Of a stretch of DNA of 30,915 nt, positions 8,083 through 30,915 are shown piece after piece (position 1 is the stretch's first letter; the number at the start of each line of letters is the position of its first letter). The stretch is from a virus, in the IMG/VR virus record IMGVR_UViG_3300047548_000922, positions 1 to 30,915 of that record. One strand, 5' to 3'. Under the pieces are notes generated by a model. That model did no database searches and was not told where the DNA came from. It was given only the letters and a program-made list of their open reading frames with translations. The position numbers were made by a program, and so were the translations under genes.

Positions 8083-8292
8083 ATGCATATTACATCTTTA
8101 GAAACAATGGAACAAATTGTAGAGAACAACGACTCACTTCGGTGGGATGGTTGGACTGTTGTTAGTTCTAAGCCGACACCAACAGCTTGGACAAAGCCTA
8201 ATGGTGCCTATTCAAATGGTCAGTGGTATCTAGAAAATCGATACGTACCAGATGAAAAAGGATGGAATATACCAAACAAGTTTGTGAGGTAA
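8083..8292 (+). CDS. Hypothetical protein (69 aa)
   Basis: A small soluble protein rich in Trp, with DGWTVVSSKPTPTAWTKPNGAY in segments around residues 22-44 and a C-terminal GWNIPNKFVR. No motif points to a function. It starts four bases after the deaminase stop, and its stop lies two bases before the WhiB start, so it belongs to the same operon. Confidence 0.65.
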   Translation: MHITSLETMEQIVENNDSLRWDGWTVVSSKPTPTAWTKPNGAYSNGQWYLENRYVPDEKGWNIPNKFVR

Positions 8293-8294
8293 TC

Positions 8295-8579
8295 ATGAAT
8301 AAGAACGAGTGGAAAGACTCAGGATCTTGCAGAGATTACGATACAAATCTTTTCTTTGATAAATATGAAGAGGATGAAAACTTACGACCAGCGATAGATA
8401 AACTGTGCTCGGATTGTCCTATGGCTAAGCATTGCTTTGCTGTAGCAGTATCTCAGAAAGAATGGGGAGTCTGGGGAGGAGTTTATTTTGAAAACGGTAA
8501 GATTTCAAGAGAATTCAATAAGCATAAGAATAAAGAGGACTGGGCAAAAACCTGGTCTTACTTAACAATGGATAGTTAA
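8295..8579 (+). CDS. whiB: WhiB-family iron-sulfur transcription regulator
   Basis: The four cluster cysteines of the WhiB family are present: Cys12, Cys38, Cys41 and Cys47, with C-x2-C-x5-C spacing, followed by the turn WGVWGGVYF (about residues 57-65) and a charged C-terminus with basic residues for DNA binding. WhiB proteins hold a 4Fe-4S cluster and bind the host sigma factor; they occur only in actinobacteria and their phages. The ATG at 8295 follows GAGG. An in-frame ATG at 8262 would add 11 residues inside the preceding gene and is less likely. In mycobacteriophage a WhiB homologue (TM4 WhiBTM4) blocks host WhiB2. Confidence 0.93.
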   Translation: MNKNEWKDSGSCRDYDTNLFFDKYEEDENLRPAIDKLCSDCPMAKHCFAVAVSQKEWGVWGGVYFENGKISREFNKHKNKEDWAKTWSYLTMDS

Positions 8580-11161: not shown

Positions 11162-11165
11162 TTTG

Positions 11166-11492
11166 TGGAACAGGGCGGAGTCGAACCGCCGTCTTGATCA
11201 CTTGCCATCGTACTTCTACATGCTTAGTTAGTTCTTCATATACAGATCTAAGCCAGAACTAACAAAAGCAAAGATCAACTATATCCATCCTAAGAAGCGT
11301 CTCTTTATTTAATGAACCTGTTGCTCAGCGAGACCACTGCTGACAGGGTGCTCTGAACGGACAACCTAAGCCGCTAGAGCATACTCTTCGGGAGTATATT
11401 TTGCACTTATCCCTTGCCACCAATCAAGTGTTCGTGGCAGTCACTACATGCTTCTCCGATCACGTGTAACCAATCGATTACCCGTCTGTCCC
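11166..11492 (-). ncRNA. ssrA: Transfer-messenger RNA (tmRNA) with tag AKYTPEEYALAA
   Basis: On the minus strand the ends form a tRNA-like acceptor: GGGACAG at the 5' end (11492-11486) pairs with CTGTTCC (11173-11167). The T-arm is GGCGG-TTCGACT-CCGCC. CAA, not CCA, follows the discriminator. A tag reading frame begins with resume codon GCA at 11404, preceded by GATAAGT as in bacterial tmRNAs, and ends at TAG 11366. It encodes AKYTPEEYALAA, with the ALAA end recognised by ClpXP. The resume codon lies about 88 bases from the 5' end, as usual. tmRNA with SmpB frees stalled ribosomes and marks the nascent chain for degradation. Confidence 0.93.
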
Positions 11493-18747: not shown

Positions 18748-19073
18748 GTTACGCACGGTTTGGACAGGATGGATCAGATGTCTATGTATTCCTGACAAGT
18801 CGTAATAGTAGTGAAGCACTTGAGTGTTGTGCTTGCAACCTTATTGAGCCAGAGAAGTTAGAACATCCATTTACAGACATGTTTGGTTTTACACATGAAT
18901 ATGAGGGTACATTCTTTTTTGCAAACACTGCACGAGAAATGATTGATCATCTAATAGAGCATAGAGCTGCTGGTCATACAGTTAATGATGATACCATTAG
19001 TGATATTATTAATGATTTCCCCGATTTAGACAAGTCGCTTGGCGAAAGCTCGGCGGGAGAAATAAAGGGTTGA
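18744..19073 (+). CDS. Conserved actinophage protein with CCAC motif (109 aa)
   Basis: Contains SDVYVFLTSRNSSEALECCACNL and a C-terminal helix block MIDHLIEHRAAGHTVNDDTI. This layout (SDVYVF/YL, Cys triplet, HL-x-EHRAAGH) recurs in many actinophage proteins of unknown role. The Cys cluster and His residues suggest zinc binding. The end of the gene overlaps the direct repeat that precedes the next promoter. Confidence 0.72.
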   Translation: MSYARFGQDGSDVYVFLTSRNSSEALECCACNLIEPEKLEHPFTDMFGFTHEYEGTFFFANTAREMIDHLIEHRAAGHTVNDDTISDIINDFPDLDKSLGESSAGEIKG

Positions 19074-19083
19074 CAAGCAACCC
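19048..19083 (+). repeat. Direct repeat copy A (pairs with 21689-21725)
   Basis: AGCTCGGCGG at the start and GGGTTGACAAGCAACCCA at the end are identical in the two copies; the middle differs by a few bases and one base in length. The repeat carries the -35 box inside the inverted repeat GGGTT-N7-AACCC. Confidence 0.8.
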
Positions 19084-19098
19084 AATCCTCGATATACT
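19070..19098 (+). promoter_or_regulatory. Promoter upstream of the dimer glycosylase gene
   Basis: TTGACA (19070-19075) and TATACT (19093-19098) with a 17-base spacer. The transcript would have a leader of about 30 bases including GAGAGAG before the ATG at 19134. Confidence 0.85.
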
Positions 19099-19133: not shown

Positions 19134-19616
19134 ATGCAAACCTTCTTACCTTATAAAGACTTTAATAAATCTGCACAGGCACTTGACAATAAGCGTCTGA
19201 ACAAACAGATTCTTGAAGGCTACCAAATTCTTAAGGTTTTGAATAACCCAGATCCTAAAGCTGCATGGCGTAACCACCCTGCTGTTAAGATGTGGCGTGG
19301 ACATGAGTATGCTCTGTGGGACTACATTGCAGAGATGGTCGAGGTAGCTAACGAACGCGGTATTAAGACTGATAAGAATGTCGAGAACCTTAATAACCTC
19401 CGTGACCTTACCCAACAATTCTGGGGTAAAGGGTATCCATCGTGGTATCGTAATGATTTTATCCTTCGTAAAGTTAATGCAACGCACAAGTATAACTTGT
19501 ATGTTAAGGATCCTATTTACTACCACGATTTTTACAAGGCTGCTCTGAACAAGCACAATGAGCCTTGCTGTGTTACATGTAACTACTATTGGCCTACACA
19601 CAAGGAAGTGGCATAA
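19134..19616 (+). CDS. Pyrimidine dimer DNA glycosylase-like protein (160 aa)
   Basis: The N-terminus MQTFLPYKDFNKSAQALDNK followed by RLNKQILEGYQILKVL and AAWRNHPAVKMWRGHEYAL (about residues 44-62) matches the MSMEG_6728/Pyr_excise type of proteins related to endonuclease V, which cut the glycosidic bond at UV pyrimidine dimers. C-terminal Cys residues (PCCVTC) may bind metal. It would repair phage DNA after light exposure. The gene has its own promoter at 19070 and overlaps the next ATG as TAATG. Confidence 0.75.
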   Translation: MQTFLPYKDFNKSAQALDNKRLNKQILEGYQILKVLNNPDPKAAWRNHPAVKMWRGHEYALWDYIAEMVEVANERGIKTDKNVENLNNLRDLTQQFWGKGYPSWYRNDFILRKVNATHKYNLYVKDPIYYHDFYKAALNKHNEPCCVTCNYYWPTHKEVA

Positions 19617-21708: not shown

Positions 21709-21725
21709 GGGTTGACAAGCAACCC
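21689..21725 (+). repeat. Direct repeat copy B (pairs with 19048-19083)
   Basis: Near-identical to copy A, with the same AGCTCGGCGG head and GGGTTGACAAGCAACCCA tail. It overlaps the end of the VbhA-like gene and supplies the -35 box of the next promoter. Confidence 0.8.
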
Positions 21726-21740
21726 ATACCATAGTATACT
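21712..21740 (+). promoter_or_regulatory. Promoter of the leaderless gene at 21747
   Basis: TTGACA (21712-21717), 17-base spacer, TATACT (21735-21740), then exactly six bases to the ATG at 21747. The -35 box sits in the inverted repeat GGGTT-N7-AACCC. Confidence 0.85.
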
Positions 21741-26448: not shown

Positions 26449-26477
26449 ATTATGGCAGATACCACTGACAATGTCAA
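26449..26477 (-). promoter_or_regulatory. Right-arm regulon promoter 1 (leaderless)
   Basis: Minus strand: TTGACA (26477-26472), 17-base spacer, CATAAT (26454-26449), six bases to ATG 26442. The -35 box starts the shared element TTGACATTGTCAGTGGTAT. Confidence 0.85.
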
Positions 26478-26546
26478 TAGATTTCTGGGAAATTTTTTGC
26501 ACTATCGTAATTAAAATTTTATGAATAACAGTCTAAATAAAAATGG

Positions 26547-26557
26547 GACCCGGCCCC
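26547..26557 (-). repeat. CCCGG spacer box
   Basis: GACCCGGCCCC on the plus strand, just after tRNA-Trp. Related boxes: 24115, 27809 (inverted), 28578, 29477 and 30297, each between a gene end and a regulon promoter. On the minus strand this copy is followed by ATTTTTATTT, which is terminator-like. Confidence 0.55.
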
Positions 26558-26563
26558 GATCCG

Positions 26564-26634
26564 CACCCCTCCGAGGAATCGAACCCCGATTTACAGATTT
26601 GGAGGCTGTCGTGTTACCATTACACTAGAGAGAT
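26564..26634 (-). tRNA. tRNA-Trp (CCA)
   Basis: Minus strand: acceptor ATCTCTC/GAGGGGT (two G-T pairs), D-arm GTGT/ACAC, anticodon stem ACAGC/TCTGT with loop CTCCAAA giving CCA, and T-arm CGGGG-TTCGATT-CCTCG. The base pair closing the anticodon loop is mismatched (C-T). No CCA end is encoded. It follows the DUF932 gene and the stem-loop at 26637. Confidence 0.85.
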
Positions 26635-26636
26635 AT

Positions 26637-26660
26637 AGGCAGTTTATTCTCATGCCTAGG
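26637..26660 (-). repeat. Copy 2 of the recurrent stem-loop (AGGCA/TGCCT variant)
   Basis: Minus strand: CCT-AGGCA-N6-TAAAC-TGCCT. The stem changes to AGGCA/TGCCT while the loop end TAAAC is kept, which is compensatory change. It lies between the DUF932 stop and tRNA-Trp. Confidence 0.75.
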
Positions 26661-26669
26661 AGTGTACCG

Positions 26670-27692
26670 TTATACGGCTACAGCGTGCTGAACTACCTTG
26701 AGTAGGCGGTTCTTCTCTGCATTGATAGCAGGGTCGAAACCACTAGCAGAGGCAAGAACAGATTCGTTGTTACCCTTGCGAGCCATGCGATACCAGTCGA
26801 GACGCTCAGTCATTGCATTGAAAGCACCCCAAGCGGTTCCAGCAATAGTGTGGTTGAACTCACCCGTGTAAATGTCTTCAATGATTTCTAGCTTGGTCTG
26901 CCACTTAGACAAAGCACCCTTAGCATCTTTCTCTGGCATAGGGTAAGCCATGCGAAGAATGTCTTGGAACTTGTCGTTAGTGATTTCCTGTTGAATCATT
27001 TCCTGAGCCAACTTATCAAACTCATCCATGTAGGCGTTAGCTAAGCCAAGAGCCTCACGAGCTGCTTGCACTTTGCCCTCAGCTGTCTGAGTGTGACGAA
27101 TCTTGAATGATTGCTTGACACCACGATTACGACCAACACCACCACCAAGAGCGAGGTTGAGAGTGTTTGCACAAACAACACGCACAGGTGTGATGCTTGC
27201 CTGAATAGCAACAGAACCGTCATGAGATGTGTTTACCAAGAGGTAGGTTTTGACCTTGTCACCAACACCCTTTTCGTCAATAATGGTCTCACGCTCAAGA
27301 GCGATTGCACCAAATACCTGACGACCACCCTTGATGCTACCAGCAGTCTCCCAGCGACCACCACCGTCTAGGATGTTGTCACCAAATGAGAACAGTTCCT
27401 CATTCTGCAATGTGCGGTAACGCTCACCAACTACACCAAGAACGTCAGTCTGAGTCTTGTCGAATGGGTTAGTGCGTGCAACAAAATAATTAGTCTTGTC
27501 ACTTGAGAAACCTTCTGGCAGGGGTACTTCTTCAAGACGTACATTCCAGTCATTGAGTGATGCCAACTCTAGCATCTTAGTTGTGTTTACTTCTTCCTCG
27601 AATACAGTTCCCAAACCATGCCATGCAGGTTCGCGGAATGATGCAAAGGTAGCTTTACCTGTAACGGAATCGATTTCTAGTTCGTGAGCCAT
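26670..27692 (-). CDS. DUF932 (phage/plasmid-like) protein
   Basis: The protein starts MAHELEIDSVTGKATFASFR and contains REPAWHGLGTVFEEEV (about 20-35), ERYRTLQNEELFSF, CANTLNLAL and a C-terminal WYRMARKGNNESVLA. This is the DUF932 / phage-plasmid primase-like TIGR03299 family found in phages, plasmids and mobile elements. At 340 residues it is a normal length. Its biochemical role is not established; links to replication or anti-defence have been suggested for relatives. ATG 27692 is eight bases from AAAGG and preferred to GTG 27701. Driven by a regulon promoter. Confidence 0.85.
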   Translation of the reverse strand: MAHELEIDSVTGKATFASFREPAWHGLGTVFEEEVNTTKMLELASLNDWNVRLEEVPLPEGFSSDKTNYFVARTNPFDKTQTDVLGVVGERYRTLQNEELFSFGDNILDGGGRWETAGSIKGGRQVFGAIALERETIIDEKGVGDKVKTYLLVNTSHDGSVAIQASITPVRVVCANTLNLALGGGVGRNRGVKQSFKIRHTQTAEGKVQAAREALGLANAYMDEFDKLAQEMIQQEITNDKFQDILRMAYPMPEKDAKGALSKWQTKLEIIEDIYTGEFNHTIAGTAWGAFNAMTERLDWYRMARKGNNESVLASASGFDPAINAEKNRLLKVVQHAVAV

Positions 27693-27732
27693 GGGCTTCA
27701 CCTTTCTTTTAGTGGACTTGCTTACTTATATA

Positions 27733-27761
27733 AGTATGACAGATACCACCGACATTGTCAA
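27733..27761 (-). promoter_or_regulatory. Right-arm regulon promoter 2 (DUF932)
   Basis: Minus strand: TTGACA (27761-27756), 17-base spacer, CATACT (27738-27733). The -35 region reads TTGACAATGTCGGTGGTAT. The leader is about 30 bases with a ribosome site. Confidence 0.86.
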
Positions 27762-27808
27762 TAGTTTTAGGAAACATTTTTTAACTTCGTAACCTGATCG
27801 TTACATTT

Positions 27809-27819
27809 GGGGCCGGGCC
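27809..27819. repeat. CCCGG spacer box (inverted orientation)
   Basis: GGGGCCGGGCC on the plus strand; its complement GGCCCGGCCCC matches the other spacer boxes. Confidence 0.5.
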
Positions 27820-27832
27820 GCCAATAGAAAGA

Positions 27833-27858
27833 GAGCAGTTTACGTGGACGTGCTCAGG
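27833..27858 (-). repeat. Copy 3 of the recurrent stem-loop
   Basis: Minus strand: CCT-GAGCA-N8-TAAAC-TGCTC. The loop is two bases longer than in the other copies; the stem is intact. It lies between the stop at 27912 and the DUF932 promoter. Confidence 0.76.
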
Positions 27859-27911
27859 TCCCTTATCGGCGGTAGGGGAAAAGAAAGGAATAAGAACCCC
27901 TACGGCCAAAT

Positions 27912-28115
27912 CTATTCTAGAACAAACTCAGCTGTTGTGTTTGCCTCGATGTGCTCTACAGTGTCTAGGTCCGCTTCAGTGATATCAAACTGAGGATAGT
28001 CATCGATATCCATGTGGCCTTGGGAGACGTGGAATATTGCAAGAGCTTCATCCTCACTATTGGCCCTCACTTCGAATGCCTCGCCACTAGTGATGTAGTA
28101 TAGGCCTTTAGTCAT
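27912..28115 (-). CDS. Hypothetical acidic protein (67 aa)
   Basis: GGAGGTG seven bases before ATG 28115 decides this start over the longer frame to 28196. The product MTKGLYYITSGEAFEVRANSE is followed by DEALAIFHVSQGHMDI and an acidic tail. The strand-strand-helix start (EVRANSEDEALAIF) is typical of small actinophage proteins of unknown role. It overlaps the upstream gene by eight bases. Confidence 0.68.
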   Translation of the reverse strand: MTKGLYYITSGEAFEVRANSEDEALAIFHVSQGHMDIDDYPQFDITEADLDTVEHIEANTTAEFVLE

Positions 28116-28251
28116 ATTGGGCACCTCCAGTGCAGTCGTCATATGGGTTTTCATTACCCTCGTTATCTTCACAGCAACAGAAACCAAACTCTTCAACCTG
28201 TGTCTTGTGAGTCAACTCAGCTAGGTCTGACCAGTACATAACCTTAGACAT
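28108..28251 (-). CDS. Small Cys-rich protein (47 aa)
   Basis: Reads MSKVMYWSDLAELTHKTQVE then EFGFCCCEDNEGNENPYDDC. A Cys triplet and a later Cys suggest metal binding, with an acidic C-terminus. It overlaps the genes on both sides by eight bases, with its ribosome site inside the upstream gene. No family is recognised. Confidence 0.62.
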   Translation of the reverse strand: MSKVMYWSDLAELTHKTQVEEFGFCCCEDNEGNENPYDDCTGGAQYD

Positions 28252-28483
28252 AGTCTGCCTCCAAAGCTTCTACTTGTTCGTCATCTCCGTCAAGCACGGC
28301 CATGATGTATTCAACACGTGTATAGTCATACATGTCGGCTGCGATTGAACGTTGTTGTTCAGTCAAGTCTTCTGGGTTATAAAGAATAATACCCTCGCCC
28401 CCATAGGAACCGTCATCACTAGCCCATGCCTGCTCAAAGTCATTGAATCGAAGGTAACCACCTTCTGGAATACGAATATCCAT
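28244..28483 (-). CDS. Hypothetical acidic protein (79 aa)
   Basis: ATG 28483 has AAAGGG seven bases upstream. Protein: MDIRIPEGGYLRFNDFEQAW, ASDDGSYGGEGIILYNPEDL, then a helical part DEQVEALEADYV. The order suggests a small beta sheet followed by helices. It is the first gene of the three-gene operon driven by regulon promoter 3. The function is unknown. Confidence 0.67.
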   Translation of the reverse strand: MDIRIPEGGYLRFNDFEQAWASDDGSYGGEGIILYNPEDLTEQQRSIAADMYDYTRVEYIMAVLDGDDEQVEALEADYV

Positions 28484-28511
28484 ATCAAACCCTTTCTTAG
28501 TTGATATATCA

Positions 28512-28540
28512 AGTATGACACATACCACGGACATTGTCAA
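28512..28540 (-). promoter_or_regulatory. Right-arm regulon promoter 3
   Basis: Minus strand: TTGACA (28540-28535), 17-base spacer, CATACT (28517-28512). The -35 region reads TTGACAATGTCCGTGGTAT. Confidence 0.86.
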
Positions 28541-28577
28541 GCATTTTCTTAAACTTTCTTAAAGGCGGATCTAGATC

Positions 28578-28587
28578 GACCCGGCCC
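28578..28587 (-). repeat. CCCGG spacer box
   Basis: GACCCGGCCC on the plus strand, between stem-loop copy 4 and regulon promoter 3. Confidence 0.5.
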
Positions 28588-28626
28588 AATCCCCAACTCT
28601 CTGGACAAACCTATGAATTGGGGTGG

Positions 28627-28650
28627 GAGCAGTTTTACAACTTGCTTAGG
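28627..28650 (-). repeat. Copy 4 of the recurrent stem-loop
   Basis: Minus strand: CCT-AAGCA-N5-TAAAAC-TGCTC. Four stem pairs remain (AGCA/TGCT). It lies just after the stop at 28669. Confidence 0.75.
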
Positions 28651-28668
28651 TTGTGACTGGGAAGGGGA

Positions 28669-29112
28669 CTAGAGGAGGTCAATCACCGTGTTGTAGGTAG
28701 TTGCCGAAACTTCTTCCTGCGAGGTCATCTTGAGAACCTTGAGGTTGCGAGTCAGCAAGTCCTTGCGAGTAGTCCAGTCACGACCAAACGATTGGGTCTG
28801 ATTTGGCTTCTCTGGTTCTTTGGGTGCTTGTGGCAAACCAAGAGCATCAGCATCTACACGAATAGATACATCACGACCATAGTTCAGGTTTACACGGATA
28901 GGTGAGTTGTATTCTTCACCAATGTTATCTGGGTTCTTGAGTGCTTCGATAACTAAACTAAGAATAGTCTGTTCGTGTGCTTTCTTTGCTTCACGGTATT
29001 CAGCAACCTTAGCAGGGTACTCAGCAATATCAGCCTCAATCTGAGCAAGAGACTTCTCAATATCAGCGATAAGAGATGCGGTAGGGATTTTCACAGCGAG
29101 TGAACGAGCCAT
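28669..29112 (-). CDS. Hypothetical protein with N-terminal coiled coil (147 aa)
   Basis: Residues about 12-55 form a long charged helix (IEKSLAQIEADIAEYPAKVA, EYREAKKAHEQTILSL). Then comes a beta-like region (SPIRVNLNYGRDVSIRVDAD) and a C-terminal part ending NTVIDLL. GAAAGGAAA precedes the ATG. The second gene of an operon whose first gene is at 29188. No function is recognised, although similar proteins occur in actinophage right arms. Confidence 0.7.
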   Translation of the reverse strand: MARSLAVKIPTASLIADIEKSLAQIEADIAEYPAKVAEYREAKKAHEQTILSLVIEALKNPDNIGEEYNSPIRVNLNYGRDVSIRVDADALGLPQAPKEPEKPNQTQSFGRDWTTRKDLLTRNLKVLKMTSQEEVSATTYNTVIDLL

Positions 29113-29155
29113 TATAGATTTCCTTTCTTATTGGCTTATTTATTTTATTAGAGTT

Positions 29156-29179
29156 GAGCAGTTTTATATCATGCTCAGG
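29156..29179 (-). repeat. Copy 5 of the recurrent stem-loop (within an operon)
   Basis: Minus strand: CCT-GAGCA-N5-TAAAAC-TGCTC, with one extra T-A pair lengthening the stem. It lies between two genes of one operon (29188 and 29112), so it is not simply an end-of-operon terminator. Confidence 0.76.
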
Positions 29180-29187
29180 ATAGGGAA

Positions 29188-29337
29188 TTACTTGACAGTA
29201 GTCCAGCGAGTGTCGCCGTTTGGCAACTGAAGACGAACACGGGCAGAGCCACTTGCGTTCTTTACGATTTCCTGAACAACACCAGTTACGCCTGAGACAG
29301 CGGTGGTGAAGGTGTTTCCGATTTCGATTGCGTTCAT
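29188..29337 (-). CDS. Conserved small actinophage protein (49 aa)
   Basis: MNAIEIGNTFTTAVSGVTGV, then VQEIVKNASGSARVRLQLPN and GDTRWTTVK. This beta-rich sequence, with SGVTG-x-VQEI and a final RWTTV, is a recognisable actinophage small-protein type; the SH3-like strand pattern suggests a binding domain, but no function is known. GGAAGC precedes the ATG. The gene is driven by regulon promoter 4. Confidence 0.76.
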   Translation of the reverse strand: MNAIEIGNTFTTAVSGVTGVVQEIVKNASGSARVRLQLPNGDTRWTTVK

Positions 29338-29396
29338 TTTTGCTTCCTTTGTTAGTGAGCCAACTTTTTATTACCAGCGGAATTGCTGATATATCT

Positions 29397-29425
29397 AGTA
29401 TGGCAGGTATCTAAACCAATGTCAA
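29397..29425 (-). promoter_or_regulatory. Right-arm regulon promoter 4 (divergent copy)
   Basis: Minus strand: TTGACA (29425-29420), 17-base spacer, CATACT (29402-29397). The core promoter is kept, but the spacer (TTGGTTTAGATACC) lacks the palindrome of the other five, so this gene may be regulated differently. Confidence 0.82.
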
Positions 29426-29476
29426 GTCTTTTTCCAAACTTTTCTTAAAAATTTTTATAACGAAACGGTAACGGTA

Positions 29477-29487
29477 GACCCGGATCC
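29477..29487 (-). repeat. CCCGG spacer box
   Basis: GACCCGGATCC on the plus strand, between the GP88 gene end and regulon promoter 4. Confidence 0.45.
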
Positions 29488-29495
29488 TGCCTCCA

Positions 29496-30215
29496 CTACT
29501 TTTTAGTAGCAGAGAACAGGATGTCATTACGAGCAAACACGCACTGTGAACAACGGACACAGGCAGAGCCATTGACACTAATCATTGGCAGCTTTTTGTT
29601 ATTCTCAGGGCAAGGGATAGGAGCCTTAGTCTGAATAACCTTGAAGTCTTCTTTACCCTCAGCAAATGTGTGGGCAAGGTATGCCAGTTTGATGTCGTAC
29701 TCAGCCTTGAGTTCCTTGCCCAATTCCTTGTTAGCTTCGTCAGTTGAGAAATAGAAACCAAGATTAGGAATGTCTTTGAGAATAGGGACAGCAAATGCAG
29801 AGCGAGTGTATGCCCAGAATTGAACGTCAGGGTAGTCACAGATAACGTCACGCCATGCCATAGTGTAGTCTTCGCTAAAGAAATCTCCGTCCCAGTGAAT
29901 ACGGAACAGTTTCTCAGCACCACGCTTGTCACAATCAGCAACAAAATCATGAATCATCTCGTGAATGAGGTTATACATGGTGAGGTAGTCTGCCTCACGT
30001 AATAGTTCCCAGTTGTGGAGTAGAGTGTTGCGAACACCCTTGAACACCTTTTCTAGCTTGCCAGCATAGCAGATAGTCTCACACACACTTGTAGCACCTG
30101 GACATGAGTACGCCTTGCCAGAGGGTAAACCAAATGTGTTAGCAACGTTAGCCTGCTTGCCATTAGGAGTGACAGAGTTAGTAACCTTACGGTCTTTGCT
30201 ACGAATGAGTTTCAT
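29496..30215 (-). CDS. GP88-like protein with cysteine clusters
   Basis: ATG 30215 with AAAGGAAAG upstream gives 239 residues starting MKLIRSKDRKVTNSVTPNGK. The signature is SCPGATSVCETICYAGK (about residues 37-53), with CPGAT-x2-C-x3-CYA, and a C-terminal CVRCSQCVFARND. Eight or more conserved-looking Cys suggest a metal or Fe-S centre. This matches the mycobacteriophage gene product 88 family (GP88), whose function is unknown. IHWDGDFFSEDY and FWAYTRS are further family-like motifs. Driven by regulon promoter 5. Confidence 0.82.
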   Translation of the reverse strand: MKLIRSKDRKVTNSVTPNGKQANVANTFGLPSGKAYSCPGATSVCETICYAGKLEKVFKGVRNTLLHNWELLREADYLTMYNLIHEMIHDFVADCDKRGAEKLFRIHWDGDFFSEDYTMAWRDVICDYPDVQFWAYTRSAFAVPILKDIPNLGFYFSTDEANKELGKELKAEYDIKLAYLAHTFAEGKEDFKVIQTKAPIPCPENNKKLPMISVNGSACVRCSQCVFARNDILFSATKK

Positions 30216-30240
30216 AAGTTTTCCTTTCCTTATATAACTA

Positions 30241-30269
30241 ATCGTACACCATACCACTGACATTGTCAA
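30241..30269 (-). promoter_or_regulatory. Right-arm regulon promoter 5 (GP88)
   Basis: Minus strand: TTGACA (30269-30264), 17-base spacer, TACGAT (30246-30241). The -35 region reads TTGACAATGTCAGTGGTAT. The -10 box is weaker than in the other copies. Confidence 0.82.
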
Positions 30270-30296
30270 TACGTAAACCAAAATAAATATTGATCA

Positions 30297-30346
30297 GGCC
30301 CGGCTACCCCAAGGGGTTGTGCGTTATTCTACAGATGTCGCACCCC
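30297..30346 (-). repeat. CCCGG box and GC-rich inverted repeat
   Basis: GGCCCGGC (30297-30304) lies beside an inverted repeat: CGCACCCC (30339-30346) pairs with GGGG-TT-GTGCG (30313-30323), with a two-base bulge. It follows the stop at 30356 and occupies the place where other spacers carry the recurrent stem-loop. No T-run follows. Confidence 0.5.
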
Positions 30347-30355
30347 TCTGTTGGT

Positions 30356-30772
30356 TTAGGCTGGTGTGAGTTTAGCACCCATATTTACAGCCAAATCATT
30401 CAATGACTCTGAAACTGAATAAGCATTGACAAAATCCTCGAATGAGACAGGCAAGGTTATTTCAGTCAGTTCACTTTGTCCCCAGAGGTATTGCTCAAGA
30501 TGAACGGTTTGTTGCTTGGAGTCAATAACTACGATAAAGTATTCGTTATCCTGCATGGTGTTTGAAATACCATACCCAGTGTCTGACTCAAGGTCACCCT
30601 CAACCATTTTACTAAACAGCATACGAGCAAGGTAGGCGTGGTCATTCCAACGCTCCCTGCGACTTAGTACCTCGCCAGCCACACGGAAATTGTCTTCACC
30701 CATCCAATGTCCATAAAGCCAAATGCGGCTGTTGTCTGGCTGTACTACTACAATATTAGAACGGTCTCCCAT
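30356..30772 (-). CDS. Conserved phage protein, MGDRSNIVV type (138 aa)
   Basis: MGDRSNIVVVQPDNSRIWLY, then GHWMGEDNFRVAGEVL and a polar beta-rich middle (GYGISNTMQDNEYFIVVID). The MGDR-x-N-I/V start followed by IWLYGHW is a frequent signature of actinophage hypothetical proteins. The function is unknown. GAAAGGAAA precedes the ATG, and the gene is driven by regulon promoter 6. Confidence 0.78.
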   Translation of the reverse strand: MGDRSNIVVVQPDNSRIWLYGHWMGEDNFRVAGEVLSRRERWNDHAYLARMLFSKMVEGDLESDTGYGISNTMQDNEYFIVVIDSKQQTVHLEQYLWGQSELTEITLPVSFEDFVNAYSVSESLNDLAVNMGAKLTPA

Positions 30773-30795
30773 TTTTATTTCCTTTCGTTTCTTTT

Positions 30796-30824
30796 ATTCT
30801 ACTACTAACCACTGACATTGTCAA
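30796..30824 (-). promoter_or_regulatory. Right-arm regulon promoter 6, inside the end of the upstream gene
   Basis: Minus strand: TTGACA (30824-30819), 17-base spacer, TAGAAT (30801-30796). The -35 region TTGACAATGTCAGTGGTTAG also encodes the last residues of the upstream protein and its stop. Confidence 0.82.
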
Positions 30825-30915
30825 GGTCAAATTTGATAATTTCTCCACCAAACATAATTATATCTTCAAGCATGTGGAGGTATCCCAATTGTTCGGGGGT
30901 AAGGTTATGAGCTGT
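30805..30915 (-). CDS. 3' end of an unknown gene (partial)
   Basis: A minus-strand frame is open from the window edge to TAG at 30807-30805, giving 36 residues including NLTPEQLGYLHMLEDIIMFG and the end FDLDNVSG. The final codons coincide with regulon promoter 6. It is too short to classify. Confidence 0.55.
   Translation of the reverse strand, partial: TAHNLTPEQLGYLHMLEDIIMFGGEIIKFDLDNVSG

Follow-up and report, generated by a model that had tools for sequence, protein, structure and literature searches.

One-strand rows of RecA-NDp-type promoters in actinophages: candidate targets of the host activator PafBC

RecA-NDp promoters make up the DNA-damage regulon of the bacterium itself. The published consensus of these LexA/RecA-independent promoters is tTGTCRgtg followed, after 8 nucleotides (nt), by TannnT (PMC5656591); the S. 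rimosus recA promoter reads TTGTCAGTGGC-N6-TAGggT (PMC2375139), and a primer upstream of SCO6735 contains TGTCAGTGG-N7-TACGGT (PMC5087735). The class is read by PafBC, a WYL-domain activator whose PafB part sits at the -26 motif and whose PafC part engages sigma-A region 4; PafBC is inactive until it has bound single-stranded DNA (ssDNA) and then slots between the promoter DNA and sigma-A region 4, a mode of activation termed sigma adaptation (PMC11804915). Here we analyze a 30,915-nt stretch of viral DNA, IMG/VR record IMGVR_UViG_3300047548_000922, referred to below in its entirety as the window. In five leftward promoters of its right arm a sigma-A -10 box is preceded, at a distance of 8 nt, by the element TGTCRGTG(G), and these sites agree with the published consensus and the S. 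rimosus recA promoter in both bases and spacing. Judged by sequence, there is a strong case for assigning these five sites to the RecA-NDp/P1 type, with the shared element as their "-26 element". The promoter class is already known; dense rows of such promoters in phages were not found in the open-access papers searched.

A first-pass annotation of the window had described six leftward promoters with a perfect TTGACA and an exact 17-nt spacer, and all six were recovered. They are listed here from the -35 box to the -10 box, which forms the last six letters of each sequence:

26477-26449, minus strand: promoter 1, TTGACA-T-TGTCAGTGG-TATCTGC-CATAAT
27761-27733, minus strand: promoter 2, TTGACA-A-TGTCGGTGG-TATCTGT-CATACT
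28540-28512, minus strand: promoter 3, TTGACA-A-TGTCCGTGG-TATGTGT-CATACT, with C at the R position
29425-29397, minus strand: promoter 4, TTGACA-N17-CATACT, plain sigma-A type without the TGTCRGTGG element
30269-30241, minus strand: promoter 5, TTGACA-A-TGTCAGTGG-TATGGTG-TACGAT, full match to TGTCRGTG-N8-TAnnnT
30824-30796, minus strand: promoter 6, TTGACA-A-TGTCAGTGG-TTAGTAG-TAGAAT, full match to TGTCRGTG-N8-TAnnnT

The same annotation held that five of the promoters share bases beyond the promoter core, and this was borne out. The pattern TGTCNGTGG-N7-YANNNT, with the -10 box exactly 7 nt on, has exactly five occurrences in the window, all of them on the minus strand, compared with 0.03 expected from shuffled sequences, and TTGACAATGTCAGTGGTAT is matched by five of the six promoters at 0–2 mismatches (0.00 expected). 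The core common to the five, which include all but copy 4, is TTGACAWTGTCNGTGG. All five element-bearing sites have TGTC, a purine comes next in four of them, and gtg then follows, with exactly 8 nt to the -10 box; promoter 3 is the weakest match of the five. Copy 4 had been singled out as a natural contrast and is one: it has TTGACATTGGTTTAGATACC in place of the element, while its -35/-10 frame is kept, together with some of the shared flank (66% identity over 53 nt).

Copies 1–4 have a flank of about 53 nt in common, at 66–79% identity, and are for this reason probably related by descent. One could therefore suppose that the six are ordinary strong sigma-A promoters, alike through recent duplication and subject to no regulator. 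We regard this explanation as scarcely credible. Five other promoters of the TTGACA-N17-(-10) form in the window (5747+, 17767+, 19070+, 21712+ and 25424-) have free, unrelated spacers, which indicates that the element is not a general property of the sigma-A promoters of this phage, and among 461 distinct sites in related virus loci, described below, TGTC is fixed and the -35 box is free.

The row of promoters appears to continue beyond the right end of the window. Its final 127 bases (30789-30915) are identical to bases 1-127 of IMGVR_UViG_3300047548_000785, a record of 67.7 kb, and this overlap is most likely an assembly-graph junction within one phage. Nine further TGTCRGTGG-N7-TANNNT sites lie within the first 4 kb of the adjoining record; every one is on the minus strand, and most lack TTGACA. 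No further site was detected in the combined 98 kb of the two records at zero mismatches.

In a first set of relatives, picked for TTGACAWTGTCNGTGGT alone and then kept where a -10 box followed, TANNNT lies exactly 7 nt past TGTCRGTGG in 90 of 110 cases. A scan of IMG/VR for TGTCRGTGGT-N6-TATAAT returned at least 120 stretches, against 34 with a spacer shorter by one nucleotide (N5) and 19 with a spacer longer by one (N7). Among 118 newly fetched loci with the exact spacing, 405 of 409 occurrences of TGTCRGTGG had TANNNT at the right distance; one copy per locus had been selected, and therefore about 287 of the remaining 291 fit the spacing. When the unselected sites were evaluated by leaving out one position at a time, T, G, T and C were each found in 261 sites against 0–2 exceptions and the purine in 261 of 280, and the exceptions at the subsequent G, T, G and G numbered 9, 32, 40 and 64, respectively; the same procedure at shifted spacing gave next to nothing. 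The stronger TGTCR and weaker gtg echo the use of upper and lower case in the published consensus. The first base of the -10 box is T in 98% of the 461 sites, a figure to be read knowing that no base other than T or C was permitted there by the search and that many loci were selected on TATAAT.

TTGACA, by comparison, is found at -35 in only 34 of the 461 sites. The first-pass annotation had considered the case in which relatives keep just TTGACA and the -10 box around a freely varying spacer, and the opposite is seen. Its proposal that constraint between the -35 and -10 boxes points to one regulator controlling a set of small genes is supported by these data. The form it gave to the operator, a palindrome TGACA-W-TGTCA overlapping the -35 box and kept in most copies, is not supported. 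Among the five window copies, three have the complete 11-bp palindrome and two break it, at 27733 (TGTCG) and 28512 (TGTCC), and a repressor placed over the -35 box is a usual design. In the relatives, however, the 3' half is kept and the TGACA arm is almost always lost: it was seen at 2 of 407 unselected sites, with no covariation with the other arm, and absent from most copies in the adjoining record, and the conserved GTGG falls outside the palindrome. We consequently reject the palindrome as the conserved unit. The related idea of L5-type stoperators finds no match either, as the stoperator GGTGGMTGTCAAG yields none in the window at up to one mismatch compared with 14 in the phage Trixie by the same test. 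A phage repressor acting on the palindrome or on a stoperator is thus very improbable.

The sites in related loci also exhibit several hallmarks of promoters. In 80 loci with at least three copies, 435 of 438 sites conform to a single strand per locus, and the sites form rows with a median gap of about 800 nt and up to 19 copies per 15 kb. An ATG open reading frame (ORF) with a Shine-Dalgarno-like sequence follows 371 of 461 sites compared with 106 of 461 random positions, and the median distance to the start codon is 28 nt. The offsets of the ATG peak sharply at 6–7 nt past the -10 box (62 of 453), as expected of leaderless messages that begin at +1, which provides an internal sign that these are real start sites. 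TG ahead of the -10 box and A at the expected start are likewise enriched. The genes downstream of the element-bearing promoters in the window are as follows:

26442-26344, minus strand: 32-aa ORF driven by promoter 1, its ATG 6 nt past the -10 box, the message probably being of the leaderless type
26670..27692, minus strand: DUF932 (PF06067) gene, served by promoter 2
28244..28483, minus strand: 79-aa gene, function unknown, that follows promoter 3
29496..30215, minus strand: GP88 (PF17338) gene, served by promoter 5
30356..30772, minus strand: 138-aa gene (phrog_31860, function unknown), served by promoter 6

Two of these genes allow the promoters to be compared across orthologues. A set of 80 DUF932 orthologues was fetched by protein, without motif bias, and provided 62 distinct upstream regions, which do not represent independent cases because the orthologues are related. 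TGTC-N12-YANNNT is present in 59 of the 62, TTGACA in 4, and TTG in 51, mostly as TTGCAT. For GP88, the full element was found in 4 of 6 distinct upstream regions and, with a single change, in one more.

Other repeated features accompany the row. A hairpin-like repeat, GAGCAGTTTTATATCATGCTC, is located downstream of several arm genes (26637-26658, 27832-27860, 28627-28650 and 29156-29179) and is possibly a common 3' end or processing signal. Most gaps between units contain a ACCCGGCCC / GGCCGGG element (24116, 26548, 27812, 28579, 29478 and 30299), which at 26548 takes the form of a minus-strand, terminator-like hairpin. A tRNA-Trp gene (26563-26634, minus strand) may be transcribed from promoter 2, since it comes after the DUF932 gene and ahead of the next promoter. 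Elsewhere in the window, the rightward promoters at 19070-19098 and 21712-21740 (plus strand) have TTGACAAGCAACCCA in common and may represent a second promoter class.

The window has a G+C content of about 41% and encodes a terminase about 54% identical to those of the Streptomyces phages Francob, Riptide and Yaboi; megablast against the closest annotated phages gave no match. It includes tRNAs, a tmRNA, ribonucleotide reductase, thymidylate synthase and a WhiB-family protein, and its right arm carries the DUF932 and GP88 genes, the latter common to Streptomyces and Mycobacterium phages. The tmRNA gene (11165-11492, minus strand) has the tag AKYTPEEYALAA, and a DNA-repair gene for a pyrimidine dimer DNA glycosylase (PF03013) lies outside the arm at 19134-19616 on the plus strand. 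The indicator of the host is

8262..8579, plus strand: WhiB-family gene (PF02467), which marks the host as actinobacterial.

WhiB is described as exclusive to Actinobacteriota and as a key indicator of actinophages, and is carried by cultured Planktophila phages (PMC10202952). It was detected in 28 of 79 motif-set records compared with none of 50 off-spacing control records, and in 1 of 14 control genomes, that one from Corynebacterium. The presence of WhiB marks the motif-set records as actinophages. The same association could be taken to mean that the phage WhiB, bound to sigma-A region 4, reads the element itself, and the first-pass annotation had suggested WhiB acting with a phage sigma factor. 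The WhiB gene is real, but WhiB marks any actinophage, many long motif-bearing records show none (e.g., G002, G009 and G060), and the Streptomyces relatives Francob and Karimac have a homologous WhiB and no element in the stretches checked. A phage sigma factor was rejected as a candidate, as 21 records, among them the window and its neighbour, yielded no sigma-70 region 2 (PF04542). These observations make WhiB a quite improbable reader. A phage-encoded WYL regulator was rejected as well, since the window and 66 related records, 67 in all and some exceeding 107 kb, showed no WYL domain. With neither a phage WYL protein nor a phage sigma-70 region 2, the simplest reader is an activator of the host that acts together with the host's own sigma-A.

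We consider it likely that the rows are arrays of phage promoters that PafBC of the host, or a near WYL relative, activates during infection, a dependence that we infer from the agreement with the known class. Several observations weigh against this interpretation. Three of the five window -10 boxes are CAnnnT rather than TAnnnT (the other two conform), and at one site the R position is occupied by C. The base before TGTC, t in the consensus, is mostly A in the phages (A in four and T in one of the window sites; A 66% and T 26% in the relatives). The window copies retain a consensus -35 box, a feature absent from the published consensus. In many DUF932 orthologue promoters TGTC is retained next to a degenerate gtgg: many read TTGCAT-W-TGTCAG and then CC in place of TGG, and therefore the gtgg half is dispensable and TGTC is not. 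No TGTCRGTG at the right spacing, and hence no element, was seen in the examined stretches of the isolated relatives Karimac, Francob, Dorin and Trixie. Finally, the presence of PafBC and of RecA-NDp promoters in the actual host is presumed.

A BLAST search of annotated phages with a 30-nt consensus hit only phages of other hosts, at the level of chance; the composite of TTGACA and the element gave 3 matches in 84,980 cellular genomes, none in Actinobacteria and by our estimate about the number expected by chance; and the bare motif letters led in the literature to unrelated primers, PMC2375139 excepted.

A different activator could also occupy the same place and read TGTCRGTG without any involvement of PafBC. 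SiwR, another WYL activator, acts at the -26 region (PMC10693628), ClgR has been reported at the P1 motif (PMC5656591), and an unrecognised phage protein is conceivable because most genes in the rows belong to no known family. SiwR is, however, a homodimer that binds a 19-bp imperfect palindrome (PMC10693628), a phage WYL activator is opposed by the domain searches described above, and it is the non-palindromic PafBC consensus that the sites match in bases, in the R position, in graded conservation and in the 8-nt spacing. We judge such an alternative activator unlikely.

If PafBC is the reader, ssDNA arising during infection would activate the host protein, which, positioned between promoter DNA and sigma-A region 4, would start transcription at the phage sites. 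A row of promoters in the same direction, one per small gene or short operon, would then switch on the arm as one regulon. Some basal sigma-A firing without the activator is probable for the window copies because they possess a consensus -35 box, whereas copies in the adjoining record, where the -35 box is mostly absent, should depend on the activator. The occurrence of the same switch in at least a hundred related virus contigs, often in many copies each, suggests that these phages plug genes into the damage alarm of the host. Evenly balanced, in our view, is the wider proposal that in a large group of WhiB-carrying, low-G+C actinophages host PafBC is the master switch of the accessory arm, with ssDNA from phage replication or from damage to the host genome activating PafBC and turning on at least a dozen phage promoters simultaneously, such that the host alarm becomes the timing signal of the phage.

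If this interpretation is correct, a common group of phages has wired its genes to the ssDNA sensor of the host and PafBC gains a role in infection. The element would also offer a way to recognize, by sequence, the accessory-arm genes of uncultured actinophages. The combination of PafBC with a -35 box could be tested cleanly, because one phage has copies with a -35 box, copies without it, and one copy without the -26 element.

Comparison with described systems places the phage rows among several partial analogues. The leftward arm of Stanwilliamsviridae-type Streptomyces phages, the group with the similar terminases, has orthologous leftward DUF932 and GP88 genes near each other, but the first 13 kb of Karimac lack TGTCNGTGG and a plain TTGACA-type promoter lies upstream of its DUF932 gene. 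The L5/Fromanvirus arm (e.g., Trixie) likewise contains a GP88 gene, and its stoperators resemble the phage sites as short repeats in a leftward arm with TGTCA and GGTGG pieces; they differ in order and orientation and in their tie to the immunity repressor. The SiwR-dependent promoter of M. smegmatis msmeg_1357-56 has a WYL activator in the corresponding position between the -35 and -10 boxes, whereas the phage element is non-palindromic outside the window copies. The closest correspondence is to the RecA-NDp/P1 promoters of Mycobacterium and Streptomyces, such as recA P1 and SCO6735, which share the TGTCRGTG core, the purine at the fifth position, the 8 nt to the -10 box, the non-palindromic character, and a -35 box that is dispensable in most phage copies. 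The phage copies depart from them in having mostly A before TGTC and, in the window, in the added consensus -35 box and three CAnnnT -10 boxes, and they stand in one-strand rows of many copies that serve small phage genes.

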